Shown: positions 10,201 through 33,685 of the stretch, one piece after another
Layout: each line of letters starts with the position of its first letter
Numbering within the stretch: the first letter of the stretch is position 1
Assembly: GCF_012317045.1 (NCBI RefSeq)
Contig: NZ_CP051154.1
Location: 2,108,001-2,172,000 of the forward strand
From: Leifsonia sp. PS1209
GTDB lineage: Bacteria > Actinomycetota > Actinomycetes > Actinomycetales > Microbacteriaceae
Length of the DNA: 64,000 nt
Reading direction: 5' to 3'
Translations under genes and position numbers: made by a program
The notes under the pieces: generated by a model
The model's input: the letters and a program-made list of their open reading frames with translations, nothing else
Database searches by the model: none
Told to the model about the DNA's origin: nothing

Positions 10201-11301
10201 ATGACGACCGCAGCCGAGCGCAACCCGAGTCCAGCGGACATCCGCCGCTGGCGCCGCTACCTCGCCGACGAACGGGCGGAGGCCGCGGTCTACCGCGACC
10301 TCGCCGGACGCCGCACCGGCGAGGAGCGCGAGATCCTGCTCGCGCTCGCCGAGGCGGAGGGCAGGCACGAGCAGCACTGGCTCACCCTGCTCGGCGACGA
10401 CGTCGGCCGACCGCTGCGCGGGGACATCCGCACCCGGCTCCTCGGCCTCCTGGCCCGCCGGTTCGGCTCGGTCTTCGTGCTCGCGCTCGCGCAGCGCGCC
10501 GAGGCCCGCTCCCCCTACAGCGACGACGTGGATGCGACGCCGCAGATGGCCGCGGACGAGCAGATCCACGAGGAGGTCGTCCGCGCGCTCGCCGCCCGGG
10601 GACGGCAGCGGCTGTCCGGCACGTTCCGCGCCGCCGTGTTCGGCGCGAACGACGGGCTCGTCAGCAACCTCGCGCTCGTGCTCGGCATCAGCGCGAGCGG
10701 CGTCGCCACCCACGTGGTGCTGCTCACCGGCATCTCCGGCCTCCTCGCCGGCGCGCTGTCGATGGGCGCAGGCGAATACGTCTCCGTCCGGTCGCAGCGA
10801 GAACTGCTCGAAGCGTCCAGCCCCAACCCGGAGACGCGGTCTGCGCTGCCCGACCTCGACGTCGACGCCAACGAGCTCACGCTCGTCTACCGTGCGCGCG
10901 GGATGGCGCCGGACGAGGCGAAGGCGCACGCCGCCGAGGTGCTCGCCGGCCTGAATGCGCGCGCCGTGGAGACGGCGTCGGTGCAGGCCGTGACGGGCGA
11001 GGTGATCGACGAGCACGAGTCGGTCGGCACGGGCTGGAACGCTGCGCTCTCGAGTTTCTGCTTCTTCGCATCCGGAGCGCTCATCCCGATCCTGCCGTAC
11101 CTCTTCGGCCTGCAGGGCACGACGGCGGTGCTCGTGGCCGCGCTGCTGGTCGGGATCGTGCTGCTCGGGACGGGCGCCATCGTCGGGCTGCTGTCCGGGG
11201 CGTCCCCGCTCAAGCGCGCGCTGCGCCAGCTGGCGATCGGGTACGGGGCCGCCGCGGCGACGTACCTGCTCGGACTGCTGTTCGGCGCGACGGTCGGCTA
11301 G
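10201..11301 (+). CDS. Ferritin-like/VIT1 fusion, MbfA-type iron or manganese exporter
   Basis: 366 aa from the ATG at 10201, 14 bp after the WYL gene. Residues 1-130 form a ferritin-like helical domain with metal-ligand glutamates and histidines (ERAEAAVYRDLA, EAEGRHEQHW, DEQIHEEVV). Residues about 140-366 form a CCC1/VIT1 membrane domain (FGANDGLVSNLALVLGIS, LSMGAGEYVSVRSQRE) with about five helices. This architecture matches MbfA, a membrane-bound ferritin that exports iron in alphaproteobacteria. Transport here is inferred. A second VIT protein lacking the ferritin domain is at 20392-21120. Confidence 0.9.
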   Translation: MTTAAERNPSPADIRRWRRYLADERAEAAVYRDLAGRRTGEEREILLALAEAEGRHEQHWLTLLGDDVGRPLRGDIRTRLLGLLARRFGSVFVLALAQRAEARSPYSDDVDATPQMAADEQIHEEVVRALAARGRQRLSGTFRAAVFGANDGLVSNLALVLGISASGVATHVVLLTGISGLLAGALSMGAGEYVSVRSQRELLEASSPNPETRSALPDLDVDANELTLVYRARGMAPDEAKAHAAEVLAGLNARAVETASVQAVTGEVIDEHESVGTGWNAALSSFCFFASGALIPILPYLFGLQGTTAVLVAALLVGIVLLGTGAIVGLLSGASPLKRALRQLAIGYGAAAATYLLGLLFGATVG

Positions 11302-11311
11302 CGACGGTCGG

Positions 11312-11824
11312 TTAGCGGCGGTCGCGGCCTCTGCCGCCGTCCCCGCCGTAGACGAGCGCCCCGGCGATCGGGACCAGCAGGAACCAGAGCCAGCTGTACG
11401 CGTATCCCCACACCGAGCTCGTCACGAAGAACAGGATGAGCGCCACGAACGGCGCGATGGACACGATCGCGAGACCCCAGCGGCGGTCCCCGGTGCGTCC
11501 GGAGCGCTGCTCGTACGGGTCGGAGGGCGACTGCGCGGCGTAGTCGGGTGCCTGATAGGCGGCGCCTGCCCCAGCGCCTGCAGCAGCACCGGCACCTGCC
11601 GCGGCGCCCGTGCCGTCGAGGTCGACGCGCCCCGGGAGGTCGGCGAACAGCGGGGCGAGGTCGCCGCGCGTCACGGCGGAGCGGGCGGACTGCACGCGGG
11701 TCTGCACCTCGGCGTCGGTCAGGCGCCCCTGCGCCGCGTGGGCCTGCAGGGCGGCGACGGCGCGCTCCCGCTCGTCGTTGCTGAGTCGCAGGGCCGCGCC
11801 GGAAGGATCGGTCAGGTCGGTCAT
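11312..11824 (-). CDS. DUF1707 domain membrane protein
   Basis: 170 aa from the ATG at 11824. The N-terminal DUF1707 domain is ALRLSNDERERAVAALQAHAAQGRLTDAEVQTRVQSARSA. A Gly/Ala-rich linker with AAGAGA-type repeats follows at about residues 70-90. Two C-terminal membrane helices (LAIVSIAPFVALILFFV and SWLWFLLVPIAGALVYG) come last. Such proteins are common and uncharacterised in actinobacteria. An upstream in-frame ATG at 11848 would add eight residues. It is convergent with the MbfA-like gene and divergent from the LexA-boxed gene. Confidence 0.85.
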   Translation of the reverse strand: MTDLTDPSGAALRLSNDERERAVAALQAHAAQGRLTDAEVQTRVQSARSAVTRGDLAPLFADLPGRVDLDGTGAAAGAGAAAGAGAGAAYQAPDYAAQSPSDPYEQRSGRTGDRRWGLAIVSIAPFVALILFFVTSSVWGYAYSWLWFLLVPIAGALVYGGDGGRGRDRR

Positions 11825-29209: not shown

Positions 29210-29809
29210 GTGACCAGAATCTCCCTTGTTCGCCACGGTCAGACCGACTGGAACCTCGCCAAACGCATCCAGGGGTCGAGCGACATCCCGCTGAACGACA
29301 CGGGGCGCGAGCAGGCGGAGGCCACGGGCCGCGCGCTCGCCGGCGGCAGCTACGACGCCATCTACGCGAGCCCGCTGAGCCGCGCGAGCGAGACGGCCAG
29401 CATCATCGCGTCGCACACCGGTCTGGATGCTCCCCTGCCGCTCCCCGAGGTCGCGGAGCGCAGCTACGGCGACGCGGAGGGCCTCACCGGCGCCGAAATC
29501 CTGGCCCGCTGGCCGGAGGGCACGCCCGTGCCCGGCCGCGAATCCCGCGACCAGGTCGTCGAGCGCGCCCTCCCCGCCCTGCTGGAGCTCGGGGAGCGGC
29601 ACCAGGGCGAGTCCGTCATCGTGGTCAGCCACGGCGGCGTGATCGGCTCCCTGGTGCGCCACGTCACCGATCACGCGCTGCCCGGCCCCGGCGAGGTCAT
29701 CCCGAACGGCTCCGTGCACGAGTTCGTCTACGAGGACGGCACGCTCACGCTCGACCGCTTCAACCTCCACCCGGAGGACAGGGACCTGTTCACGGCGTCG
29801 GTGCTCTGA
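29210..29809 (+). CDS. Histidine phosphatase / phosphoglycerate-mutase-like protein
   Basis: 199 aa from a GTG. The phosphohistidine motif is LVRHGQTDWNLAKRIQG (RHG near residues 8-10) and the second catalytic His is in VVSHGGVIGSLVRH. The fold is branch-1 histidine phosphatase; the substrate is unknown (phosphoglycerate, sugar phosphates or a cofactor). The last 93 bases of this gene, plus 18 bp beyond it, are repeated at 31523-31633. The coding sequence here is intact and full length, so the insertion preserved function. Confidence 0.93.
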   Translation: MTRISLVRHGQTDWNLAKRIQGSSDIPLNDTGREQAEATGRALAGGSYDAIYASPLSRASETASIIASHTGLDAPLPLPEVAERSYGDAEGLTGAEILARWPEGTPVPGRESRDQVVERALPALLELGERHQGESVIVVSHGGVIGSLVRHVTDHALPGPGEVIPNGSVHEFVYEDGTLTLDRFNLHPEDRDLFTASVL

Positions 29810-29827
29810 GCCGCGCTCAGCCCTCCG
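29717..29827 (+). repeat. Left 111-bp direct repeat of the island
   Basis: Covers the last 31 codons of the histidine phosphatase gene (from HEFVYEDG), its stop and 18 bp beyond. The copy at 31523-31633 differs only at base 29803 (G here, A at 31609). It contains the palindrome CTGAGC-CGC-GCTCAG at 29806-29820, which overlaps the stop codon. Confidence 0.97.
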
Positions 29828-30079
29828 GTGTCCGAGATTCGGTCGACAGCCACGCAGATTCTGGTGTCGTGGGGGCCCGTACGCCGTGCATCACTGAACT
29901 GCCGTGAAGCGAATCGGCATGAGGCGTCCAACTCGATCACCACACCTGGTAGCACCCTGCGTCCGACAAAGGGTGCCTCGATGAAGTGCGCGGCCGAGAA
30001 GGTCACTCCCGGCCCTTTGCCCATGGACGCGGACTTCCCAAATGGGTTCAACGCCGAACCACAACCAGTCCACATCTAA
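29828..30079 (+). CDS. Short open frame of unknown status, possible gene remnant
   Basis: 83 aa from a GTG that begins exactly where the repeat ends, in the same frame as the phosphatase stop. No clear ribosome site, domain or membrane segment. Text such as TPGSTLRPTKGASMKCAAEKV and DADFPNGFNAEPQPVHI is not recognised. It could be the 3' piece of a gene cut off at the island boundary. Its stop overlaps the tail of the convergent membrane-protein gene by 4 bp. Confidence 0.3.
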   Translation: MSEIRSTATQILVSWGPVRRASLNCREANRHEASNSITTPGSTLRPTKGASMKCAAEKVTPGPLPMDADFPNGFNAEPQPVHI

Positions 30080-31389
30080 CTTCTTGGACGTCGGCTGCTG
30101 AAAGGCTTCCGGACGTGGAGTACCTTCACGCGTTTGGGCACGCGACTCGAATTGAAGTTTCGAGGACCTGTCGATCGCGCTCGCAGACGGTCCCGCCTAT
30201 TTCCAAAGAGTTCTTTCTGAACCTCGATTCGGTGTGTAAGTCGGTCCGCCTTCCTCAATTCGAATCCGACGCGGGCGAAGCGAGCAGCCCCACGAGGTGT
30301 CCAGCCAGACTTCGACCCACGCGACAGCCAGGCCAGAGGCGACGCAACCATGGCCTGAGTAGCGAAGCAGCCCACGGATAGAAGCACTCCAATTGTCACC
30401 TGCAAGGACTCTTCACCCGATTGCGTAGCAACCACGAGACCACCAGGCCCAGTTAAGACGAGGACTGCAACACTTGGCGTCCAACGGAGGACGTTTATGC
30501 AGCCCTTCTCGCGGGCATTCGGTACCAAGATAACTATCTCGGCAAGAACCGCGGCTACGAAGATTAACAGGCACCACACGAAGAAGATCGCCACCACTAG
30601 TCCAATGGACGCAGAAACCGCCTGTGTAGGCCAAGCCGAGAGTCCGTAATGTGTGGTGATGGCAGCCGTCGCACTGCCGACTGTGAGGACGAACACCAAA
30701 GCAAGCCACCCCGCGGCGATCAGAACGTAACGAAGGACCGGGGGACGGCTGCCTGGTGCCTGGTCGACCTTTCTCTCAAGCCGACTTGCTTCTAGAGGAA
30801 ACGTTTGGCGCACCGAGGCAAGAACCGCTTGTCTTTCTCGGACGAGTTGGTTCCTGGTATCGGCTTGCAAGCTTCGGGAGGCCGCGACGCACGCAAATGC
30901 CAAAATCAAACCGCAAGCGAGGACGGCGCACGTCACGAAGCTCACATTCGATCGGATTTGCGCAAGCAACATTAGCCCGAGGTTGAGTGTGACGAAGCCG
31001 ATGAACTGCGCGAGAGCACGCAGCTGTCGCAGGCTGCGCCGCGCGAGCTCGCTGTCGGAACGTTCAACGCCGAGCGTTGCTATCGCGAGCGCGACGATAC
31101 AGGACGACAAGACAAGGATTAGATCCCAGACATCGTCGCTACGGATCTGGCGAGCCCAACGCAGCGGCACCTGTGCAGCAGCCGCCCCCAACGACAGGAC
31201 ACCACCTTCCGAAAGAGAACTCCTCGATTCGCCATCGAACGCGCGGGCAAATCCACCGAAGATCCCGATGAGGACAGCTAGTAGATTCAGAAGTATCGCG
31301 TCAAGAGCAAGGGTGATCCGTAGGATGCCCCAAAATTGCCGCAGAGCTCCCGTCGCCCTGATCGCATGCTGCGCACTTTGGCCTCTCAT
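30076..31389 (-). CDS. Unknown polytopic membrane protein carried by the island
   Basis: 437 aa from the ATG at 31389. I do not recognise the family. About eight hydrophobic segments are seen near residues 25-47, 88-107, 125-145, 150-170, 222-248, 262-292, 306-322 and 330-352. An internal basic loop (about 172-215, with RNQLVRERQAVLASVRQTF) and a strongly basic C-terminal tail (about 375-437, RIEVQKELFGNRRDRLRARS onward) are probably cytoplasmic. No catalytic motif is apparent. Composition is less GC-rich than neighbouring genes, consistent with transfer. It is the only sizeable gene on the island, so it is the likely cargo. It could be a defence, toxin or transport protein; none can be argued from sequence. 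Confidence 0.65.
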   Translation of the reverse strand: MRGQSAQHAIRATGALRQFWGILRITLALDAILLNLLAVLIGIFGGFARAFDGESRSSLSEGGVLSLGAAAAQVPLRWARQIRSDDVWDLILVLSSCIVALAIATLGVERSDSELARRSLRQLRALAQFIGFVTLNLGLMLLAQIRSNVSFVTCAVLACGLILAFACVAASRSLQADTRNQLVRERQAVLASVRQTFPLEASRLERKVDQAPGSRPPVLRYVLIAAGWLALVFVLTVGSATAAITTHYGLSAWPTQAVSASIGLVVAIFFVWCLLIFVAAVLAEIVILVPNAREKGCINVLRWTPSVAVLVLTGPGGLVVATQSGEESLQVTIGVLLSVGCFATQAMVASPLAWLSRGSKSGWTPRGAARFARVGFELRKADRLTHRIEVQKELFGNRRDRLRARSTGPRNFNSSRVPKRVKVLHVRKPFSSRRPRS

Positions 31390-31522
31390 GGCTTACGCAG
31401 GTCCGCGGCACGCTCTCGCCTAACCTCACGTTCGAAGCATTGAACTATTAGCGTCAACTCGTTGAAATACTTCACGCTAACGCAGGATACATGCTCAAAA
31501 CGAGTTCGTCTCCGCCGAATCT

Positions 31523-31633
31523 CACGAGTTCGTCTACGAGGACGGCACGCTCACGCTCGACCGCTTCAACCTCCACCCGGAGGACAGGGACCTGTTCACG
31601 GCGTCGGTACTCTGAGCCGCGCTCAGCCCTCCG
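31523..31633 (+). repeat. Right 111-bp direct repeat, 3' fragment of the phosphatase gene
   Basis: Second copy of 29717-29827 with one mismatch. It encodes the last 31 codons and stop of the phosphatase in frame but has no start, so it is a gene fragment. Immediately before it, ACGAGTTCGTCT occurs at 31500-31511 and again inside the repeat at 31524-31535, a 12-bp match at the junction. Confidence 0.95.
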
Positions 31634-33685
31634 CTACATCCCTCCGCACGGCGTGAGCCCCTCGACCGCCGTTGTCAGGACGGTCGGGCCACCGATCAGG
31701 GTGACGGTACGGACGCCGAGGCGGCCCATGTCGGCCAGCACGCCAGTCGGCACGCAGCTGCCGGGAGCGAGGAACAGCGGCGAGGACGTCTTGCCTGCCC
31801 AGCTGCTCGCCGCGAGGGCATCCGGGTAGCCGAAGCCGGTGGCGATGATCGCCGTGGATGCGGTGGGGTACGTGGTCACGTTGACCGCCTCCGCCGTGGA
31901 GTACCTGTCCGATCCGGCGAGACGGCTGACCGCGAAGCCGCTCTGCGTCAGCGAGTACTCGACGCCGCTCGAGATCACCGACGTTCCGCCGACCAGTTCG
32001 ACCTTCGTCGCCCCGAGCGACCTCAGCAGCGCCGTCGTCGCCGCGTCAGCGGAGTCCGCAGCGCCGTTGACGAGCAGCACGGGAGCGCCCTTCGACCCCG
32101 CAGCCCCTCCGGCCGACAGCGCATCCGGGAAGTTCAGCCCGGAGGCCAGGTACACGGTGGTCGCGGACGAGAACGCCCCCGTCACCACGGAGCGCGAGGT
32201 GGAGAAGCGGTCGTCGCCCGCTGCGCGGCTCACCGTCGCCGACGGCGCCGCCGAGCGCAGCTGGCTCAGCACGTGGTCGGAGACGGATGCTGCGCCACCG
32301 GCGACCACGATCTTCGCCGGCTTGAGCCGTGCAACCTCCGCCGCGACATCCGGCGTGAGCCCGGTCGGCGGTGTGAGCAGCAGCGGGCCGCCGCGCTTCA
32401 CCGCTGCCGGTCCTGCCGCCAGCGCATCCGGATAGTTCAGGCCGGAGGCGACGTAGACGACCGGCGCCGTGCCGGGGAACGCCTTCTTCGAGACGGCCAC
32501 CGAGGTCGCGAAGCGGTCGCTGCCCGCCACCCGGTCGGTGGTGATCTTCCGCACCACGGACACGAGCGTGTTGCCCGAGTTCGCACCGGAGACGTACACG
32601 GACCCTGTCGCCTGGTTCACGGCGAGACCGGCGGGCGTCGGCACGGGGACATAGCCGACCACCGTCTTCGACGCGGTGGTGACCGCGAGCACCGCGTTCG
32701 CGGTTCCGCCCTCGAACGGCTGCGAGACGGCGACGTAGAGCGTGCCGGCCGTCTGGTCGACCTGGAGCGCCTCCGCCTGGGCGGGAAGGCCGATGGTCGC
32801 GGTCACGGCCGAGCCCCCGCGGGGCACGATCGCCAGCTCGTACGCGGACGAGAACGCCGACGTGCGACGGGAGACGTACACGGTGCCGGTGGACGGGTCG
32901 ACCGTCGTGACGTGCGCGATCCCCGTCAGCGGCACGGTGCGTGTCACCGTGTTCGTCGCCGTGCTGAGCGAGAACAGCGTGGAGTCCGTCGGCGACGACG
33001 TCACCGCGTACACGACGCCGCCAGCGGGGTCGATGGCGATCCCGGCCGGTTGCTGCTGTGTGGCCGGGAGCGCGACCGGCGTCGGCGTGACAGCCGTACC
33101 GCCGACCGCGGTGGCGATCTGCGCGGCGGTCAGCACCAGGAAGGATGGCGTCTGAGCTGCGCCCACCTGCCGGTCCCCGACGACGTAGACCGAGCCCGTC
33201 GCGGTGTCGACGGCGATCCCGCTGTCCCCGCTGGAACCGATCAGATGCACAGCGCCGAGCTGGATGGTCGCCACCTGCGTCAGGCTCGTGGTGCTGAACA
33301 CCGCGAGCGAGGTGGTCCCGGCGTTCAGGTCCTCGACCGTGACGTAGACGAGGTGCCGCGCCTCGTCGATGGCGACCCCCAGCGGGATGACCGGCAGAGG
33401 CAGCGTCTTCGTCAGAGAGCCGTCGGTGAGGTCGAGCACGGAGAGGTCGCTGTGCGCGCGTTCCGTCACCAGCGCGAACAGGGTGTTCGTGCCCTGGTCG
33501 ACCGCCATGGTGGGGATGGTCGCCATCCCGTCGCCACCACCGGGAACCACAGGGATCGTGTTCACCACCCCGTACAGGTCCTGGCTCGCGTTCGCGGGCA
33601 GCGCCCCCAACACGGCTCCCGCCATCGCGGTCACCGCCACGATCCCGACGGCAGCGGCCGTCCTCCCCCAGCGTCGCATCGACAT
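31634..33685 (-). CDS. Secreted protein: YncE-like propeller plus cell-wall-binding repeats
   Basis: 683 aa from the ATG at 33685. Signal peptide: RRWGRTAAAVGIVAVTAMAGAVLGALPANASQ. Residues about 35-390 repeat the pattern (V/A)D-x-x-T-G-(T/S)-V-Y-V, for example VDTATGSVYVVGDRQVG and NQATGSVYVSGANSG, typical of a YVTN/YncE beta-propeller. Residues about 395-683 hold three cell-wall-binding-2 repeats (RVAGSDRFATSVAVS, RAAGDDRFSTSRSVV, RLAGSDRYSTAEAVN). It should be exported and held on the wall. Its stop lies directly at the island's right repeat, and the glycosyltransferase gene is 55 bp upstream. Confidence 0.9.
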   Translation of the reverse strand: MSMRRWGRTAAAVGIVAVTAMAGAVLGALPANASQDLYGVVNTIPVVPGGGDGMATIPTMAVDQGTNTLFALVTERAHSDLSVLDLTDGSLTKTLPLPVIPLGVAIDEARHLVYVTVEDLNAGTTSLAVFSTTSLTQVATIQLGAVHLIGSSGDSGIAVDTATGSVYVVGDRQVGAAQTPSFLVLTAAQIATAVGGTAVTPTPVALPATQQQPAGIAIDPAGGVVYAVTSSPTDSTLFSLSTATNTVTRTVPLTGIAHVTTVDPSTGTVYVSRRTSAFSSAYELAIVPRGGSAVTATIGLPAQAEALQVDQTAGTLYVAVSQPFEGGTANAVLAVTTASKTVVGYVPVPTPAGLAVNQATGSVYVSGANSGNTLVSVVRKITTDRVAGSDRFATSVAVSKKAFPGTAPVVYVASGLNYPDALAAGPAAVKRGGPLLLTPPTGLTPDVAAEVARLKPAKIVVAGGAASVSDHVLSQLRSAAPSATVSRAAGDDRFSTSRSVVTGAFSSATTVYLASGLNFPDALSAGGAAGSKGAPVLLVNGAADSADAATTALLRSLGATKVELVGGTSVISSGVEYSLTQSGFAVSRLAGSDRYSTAEAVNVTTYPTASTAIIATGFGYPDALAASSWAGKTSSPLFLAPGSCVPTGVLADMGRLGVRTVTLIGGPTVLTTAVEGLTPCGGM

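Follow-up and report, generated by a model that had tools for sequence, protein, structure and literature searches.

The sequence comparisons support a recent insertion of foreign DNA directly after a histidine phosphatase gene, at a site that is empty in relatives. The insert lies in the window (the whole 64-kb stretch of DNA that was analysed, positions 2108001-2172000 of a genome that forms a single contig of 4,091,164 bases) and is framed by two 111-bp direct repeats of the gene's 3' end. We favour, at about an even chance, an insertion with long target duplication by repair, illegitimate recombination or template switching. A cargo-only remnant of an integrative element, inserted by a recombinase, keeps about a third of our belief.

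Layout of the repeats and the insert

The features of the locus are as follows (positions in the window).

29210..29809, + strand: complete histidine phosphatase gene whose end lies in the left repeat copy (His_Phos_1, E 4e-49; 95% identical protein in G006, the nearest genome)
29717..29827, + strand: left copy of the 111-bp direct repeat, with codons 170-199, stop codon and 18 bp (repeat comparison)
29828..31522, no strand: putative inserted foreign DNA, 1,695 bp, 58.5% GC (composition; absent from G006 and G011 by DNA search)
30076..31389, − strand: 437-aa ORF, predicted all-helical membrane protein with no known relatives (third-position GC 0.61)
31500..31514, + strand: partial third copy of the repeat start, 14 of 15 bases (sequence comparison and simulation)
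31523..31633, + strand: right repeat copy, a start-less phosphatase gene fragment with a silent difference at 31609 (repeat comparison)
31634..33685, − strand: cell-wall-binding repeat protein gene, intact, the right neighbour of the empty site in G006 (CW_binding_2, E 5.3e-47; 75% identical over the full length in G006)

By two methods, it was found that 110 of the 111 bases of the left copy recur in the right copy with a single mismatch, in agreement with an earlier sequence-only reading, which had described an insert of about 1.7 kb framed in this way. A search of the 4.09-Mb genome returned exactly two copies of the repeat (E = 4.5e-51 for the second). The first base of the repeat is also that of codon 170 in the phosphatase gene, and the repeat ends one base before position 31634, at which the stop codon of the convergent cell-wall-binding gene lies. 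The earlier description of its content as 31 codons, the stop and 18 bp was right for the stop and the 18 bp, and the codons were corrected to 30 sense codons. The mismatch was silent (GTG in the left copy, GTA in the right), and the 18 non-coding bases past the stop were identical in both copies. The closest named relatives of the phosphatase were Leifsonia proteins.

The lower GC content noticed earlier was borne out by measurement, since 36 other segments of 1,695 bp, taken from the 64 kb without overlap, had a mean of 69.2% (sd 2.1, minimum 65.9%). The third-position GC of the one long ORF of the insert was also low, compared with 0.88-0.94 in four neighbouring genes. Together, these values make the insert look foreign.

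The ORF product was, as had been proposed, a predicted membrane protein without a family match in Pfam, NCBIfam or PADLOC. Two PHROG matches (E 0.066 and 0.35) and three PDB matches (E 0.59 or worse) were judged to be due to chance. The structure model was helical and of low confidence (mean pLDDT 50.5). The protein was found in none of the 27 other same-genus genomes. Among 398 genomes of the family it matched its own genome and, weakly, one other genome (30% over 67 aa, E 9e-4), which was also regarded as chance, and among 7,997 candidates scored from 5.8 billion proteins it matched only itself. The cluster of the insert protein had 1 member, compared with 15 for the phosphatase and 9 for the nearest cell-wall-protein cluster (representative 94% identical); these counts, which come from 90% clusters that may mix species and from redundant collections, hint that the insert is rare among close strains. 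At the DNA level, no further copy of the insert was found in its own genome and none in G006 or G011. The search for a phage or plasmid source gave no match at the DNA or protein level, and two stretches of viral contigs that fit a peptide pattern did not encode a relative.

The empty site and the age of the insertion

An empty site with one repeat copy, which had been suggested as a check, was found in G006, where the phosphatase gene (95% aa identity) is followed after 45 bp by the same cell-wall-binding gene (75% aa identity), without the insert. The empty-site comparison rests on this nearest genome, from which the exact ancestral junction is not visible: its 45-bp gap compares with 18 bp here, and the gap sequence differs. 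The BLAST alignment to the repeat ended 3 bases past the stop codon in G006 and 1 base past it in G011, and the longest reach into the repeat among the relatives was to position 108 of 111 (L013).

The second suggested check, for other occupants at the same site, gave a negative answer. No second repeat copy was observed in 29 relative loci with 1.5-kb flanks (28 matched the repeat once, and L031 had no match), nor in 80 further loci, mostly from distant genera, of which 76 were effectively tested. Two copies around conserved DNA of the same composition as the flanks, shared by all relatives, were not what was found: G006 is empty and the insert is foreign in GC.

The two copies were 99% alike, whereas G006 was 88.5% identical to the repeat over the 96 nt aligned by BLAST (11.5% different). 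Together with the identity of the 18 non-coding bases, this indicates that the second copy was made recently from DNA of this species itself. At the mismatch position, the 18 loci that were read of the 29 (11 were not read) had G in 13 cases, C in four and T in one. Because none of them had A, the A of the right copy is probably the derived state, which is what one would expect in a fragment that serves no purpose.

A variable spot behind the phosphatase gene

The cell-wall gene after the phosphatase gene is common to the studied genome and G006. Among the 27 same-genus relatives, 21 have a glycosyltransferase gene no more than 1.5 kb from the phosphatase gene, with no cell-wall gene found in that space, so the cell-wall-binding gene (31634-33685) was also gained or lost at this spot. 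Several other arrangements were seen in the relatives. In G005, the phosphatase and glycosyltransferase genes are separated by a 454-aa ORF (L035:1205-2569), which overlaps the final phosphatase codons on the other strand. In G020, G001 and G008 (L036, L037 and L038), the 3' end of the phosphatase gene stands tail to tail with a gene whose place in the window is upstream of the phosphatase gene, and this marks a rearrangement breakpoint. In G017, the phosphatase gene is split by ~1.1 kb with 31-bp inverted repeats (93.5%), resembling an insertion sequence (L039:7768-9477). Repeated breakage at this spot would suit an origin by break repair without being proof of it.

A partial repeat at the right junction

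The partial third copy at 31500-31514, 24 bp ahead of the right copy, matches the start of the 111-bp unit; it had escaped the earlier reading. An echo of this quality was equalled by only one of 200,000 simulated 60-base ends and by none of the 2,102 other 60-base windows of the 64 kb. At the left junction, the best match was 8 of 15 bases. The echo at the right junction is beyond chance. We read it as a start of copying into the repeat that was then aborted; a remnant of some previous recombination is another possibility.

Insertion with long target duplication would account for the locus in a few steps. A break, or staggered nicks ~111 bp apart, would have arisen in the host DNA, both ends would have been filled in, and a captured fragment would have been joined by end joining or by template switching during synthesis, with the echo as the trace of a false copying start. 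Both neighbour genes would have stayed intact because the duplicated stretch spans the 3' end of one gene and the intergenic gap. Once present, the 111-bp repeats would permit precise loss of the insert, or its transfer from strain to strain, by ordinary homologous recombination. The break, the joining pathway and the later mobility are what we infer here. End joining is possible because a Ku gene is present in the genome; this gene is only permissive and does not demonstrate end joining. Ku-based joining is weakened by the statement, in the accessible part of PMC2884548, that end joining is almost absent in prokaryotes.

Duplication or integrative element

The sequence-only reading had noted that the left copy keeps the gene whole and that the right copy is a start-less fragment, and had taken the locus for an integrative element in a gene's 3' end, decayed or moved by a recombinase in trans. 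The arrangement itself was seen again. It does not separate the two explanations, because a duplication and an integrative element both leave a whole left gene and a start-less right fragment; a whole left gene is expected of any insertion whose duplication covers the gene end. Finding a whole gene next to a start-less copy of its 3' end does not, on its own, prove that an integrase acted.

According to the integrative explanation, which resembles CIMEs, a recombinase inserted at the 3' end of the phosphatase gene an element carrying its own copy of the last 111 bp, and the integrase was lost or acts from elsewhere. The topology of the repeat and the gene end fits this, and the insertion at a gene 3' end, as for integrative elements, weakens the duplication reading. 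The genome has 8 tyrosine recombinase matches that might act in trans, two of which we take to be probably XerC and XerD. None of the 8 lies in the window. When the insert was read in six frames with stops as X, no Pfam family was found at E up to 1, and neither a recombinase nor a transposase, as had been claimed. Searching with Phage_integrase, the family of tyrosine recombinases, and comparing distances by eye, no match was found within 50 kb of the phosphatase gene among the matches listed for 28 same-genus genomes, the nearest listed one being ~58 kb away in G010. The site of a recombinase is often shared by other elements, and the enzyme or a remnant of it is often found close by; no other occupied site was present in the relative loci. 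Except when an element originates from the same species as its host, its copy of the gene end usually shows silent differences from that of the host. The copies here agree at silent and non-coding positions with the exception of one base, so an element from the same species would be needed. Of the earlier interpretation, the recent foreign insertion at an empty site stands and the topology fits, while the recombinase was missing both from the insert and from the neighbourhood of the site among the matches listed.

Long target duplication is favoured because the copies agree down to the non-coding bases, no second occupied site was seen, no listed integrase is nearby and the insert contains no recombinase. 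The earlier argument that a transposon target duplication would be far shorter than 111 bp is sound as general knowledge. It does not extend to other insertions, for which long target duplications are described in the accessible parts of the sources cited below.

Other direct repeats in the genome

For recurrence, 40 segments of 20 kb each (two next to the window, six at integrase matches and 32 spaced) were sampled, or 800 kb of the 4.09 Mb, and direct repeats of at least 25 bp and at least 90% identity with a spacer above 400 bp were collected. The scan yielded two further direct repeats, at a tRNA-Gly gene (L142) and in L147, and no second clean case was found in this sample.

At ~1.91 Mb, an identical 45-bp repeat (L142:9005-9049 and 11320-11364) corresponds to the 3' part of tRNA-Gly. 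The repeats enclose ~2.27 kb (about 2,270 bp) with 60% GC, two ORFs without a Pfam family and what is left of a resolvase (Resolvase and HTH_7 domains). Beside these remains is what we take, by eye from its motif, to be the first ~40 residues of a tyrosine integrase; Pfam did not report a match. Like the studied locus, this remnant (L142:9005-11364) consists of DNA of low GC enclosed by direct repeats that match the 3' portion of a gene, and no intact integrase was seen. Unlike it, the remnant uses a tRNA site, its 45-bp repeat ends at the tRNA end, and a resolvase remnant lies inside. Because it is an example, from this genome, of a remnant that lacks an intact integrase, the integrative explanation retains the share given above, and the duplication reading is weakened.

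At ~3.91 Mb, a 51-bp repeat (94%; L147:10508-10558 and 11052-11102) surrounds 493 bp with an 80-aa ORF, flanked by what are presumably a LacI-type gene and a cold-shock gene. It was rejected as a clean case, because G006 becomes similar at the right copy: the left copy is matched weakly (72% over 50 bp), and the remaining sequence on the left has no match. At ~0.8 Mb (L159:1-7355), ~7 kb aligns with itself at an offset of 696 bp with 91% identity and is followed by 104-bp repeats 120 bp apart; this 7-kb stretch is probably one very long repetitive protein. The repeats of L159 and L161 were set aside for short or negative spacers, as was one inverted pair in L132.

A broader proposal, that Ku-bearing actinobacteria may capture single foreign genes by a repair process that regularly duplicates ~100 bp of the target, is in our estimate unlikely. 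If it were true, the duplication would shield the gene that is hit, and the cassette could be excised or passed on by homologous recombination, which would amount to mobility without a mobility gene.

Correctness of the assembly and further explanations

Repeats are a usual cause of misassembly, and the two-copy layout might accordingly be an artefact. This is very unlikely: the genome is a single contig, the insert has a foreign composition and yet an intact ORF, and a separate database contig matches the layout. The insert protein in the protein database sits on a contig of 1,780 bp. In a k = 31 graph of the window, a unitig of exactly 1,780 bp was obtained around the insert (29773-31552), while 14 other k values gave other lengths and two copies without the mismatch would, by arithmetic, give 1,755 bp. 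The contig presumably comes from Logan, as other rows of the same searches carry the tag 'lgn', which we took as Logan. As described in the accessible part of PMC12424806, Logan assemblies consist of distinct 31-mers by construction. It is the equality of this contig with the unitig predicted from two copies and their mismatch that makes an artefact unlikely. Very probably, both the two-copy layout and its mismatch are present in some short-read set, which may come from this very strain. A 10,887-bp contig of the phosphatase cluster was rejected as evidence, because its protein differs by one residue and the repeats do not predict where the contig starts.

The layout might also have formed in another strain of the species and been imported by homologous recombination, through transformation, conjugation or a single crossover of a one-copy circle. 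The 111-bp repeats could serve as homology, and the layout is shown in some short-read set, perhaps this strain's own, by the database contig, whose length is exactly as predicted. Such an import would merely move the origin elsewhere, and we consider it distinctly improbable.

In a diversity-generating retroelement, the right copy would be the template and the left copy the variable repeat. The length of the repeat, its position at a gene 3' end and the A (right) versus G (left) difference agree with this. There is one silent change only, and no reverse transcriptase match (PF00078, RVT_1) was found in the genome, while 3 of 14 control genomes gave a match. This explanation was given almost no weight.

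Two further candidates were rejected. The recombination site of an integron cassette is strongly folding, and the repeat folds like its own shuffles (z 0.05). For an insertion sequence or transposon, no transposase family was found, and no inverted pair joins the two ends of the insert among 25 of 31 pairs.

Comparison with known systems

Many small strain-specific bacterial genes have no visible mobility gene, and their route of entry is poorly known. The present locus is young enough that its junctions, the duplicated target and the copying trace are still readable, which makes it a test case for break repair versus a recombinase.

CIMEs are described in the accessible part of PMC7563491 as cargo-only, cis-mobilizable elements of 1.2-13 kb, and related elements use the 3' ends of protein genes; the existence of such elements speaks for the integrative explanation. 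The size range, the recombinase-free cargo and the flanking repeats are shared with the locus. In contrast to CIMEs, no related element or listed nearby integrase was found here at the site in the genomes examined, and both copies are same-species DNA, including the non-coding part.

In E. coli, illegitimate recombination is regarded as likely for most small variable segments, of which 10-18% are repeat-flanked, mostly by repeats below 30 bp (PMC2884548, in the part accessible). Transposed genes of Arabidopsis resemble the locus in having flanking direct repeats of host, non-transposon sequence that is also present at the empty orthologous site. They differ in belonging to a plant, and the accessible part of the same source (PMC2869330) also offers homologous integration of a repeat-bearing circle.

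In Helicobacter pylori, the name 'insertion with long target duplication' is given to a pattern that often involves restriction-modification genes (Nobusato et al. 2000, Gene 259:99, as reported in excerpts of PMC1643837, PMC4978471, PMC2749054 and PMC3154945). Judged from these excerpts, the likeness lies in a gene that is present in one genome, absent from a close relative and bordered on both sides by long direct copies of the target. Three features of the pattern were present here: a flanking repeat of 111 bp and 99% identity, a single copy at the empty site of G006, and no transposase or integrase in the insert. As to whether the repeat is duplicated resident DNA, the closer likeness between the copies (99%) than to G006 (88.5%) would also fit an import from the same species. 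Restriction-modification cargo, which is frequent in this pattern and not strictly defining, was not found, as the insert encodes a membrane protein. Compared with the H. pylori cases as excerpted, the locus thus has a membrane protein without known relatives in place of the frequent restriction-modification cargo, stands in an actinobacterium and shows an extra partial repeat at one junction. The locus most likely belongs to a kind of insertion that has been seen before; the partial repeat echo at one junction is unusual, and the cargo gene has no known relatives.
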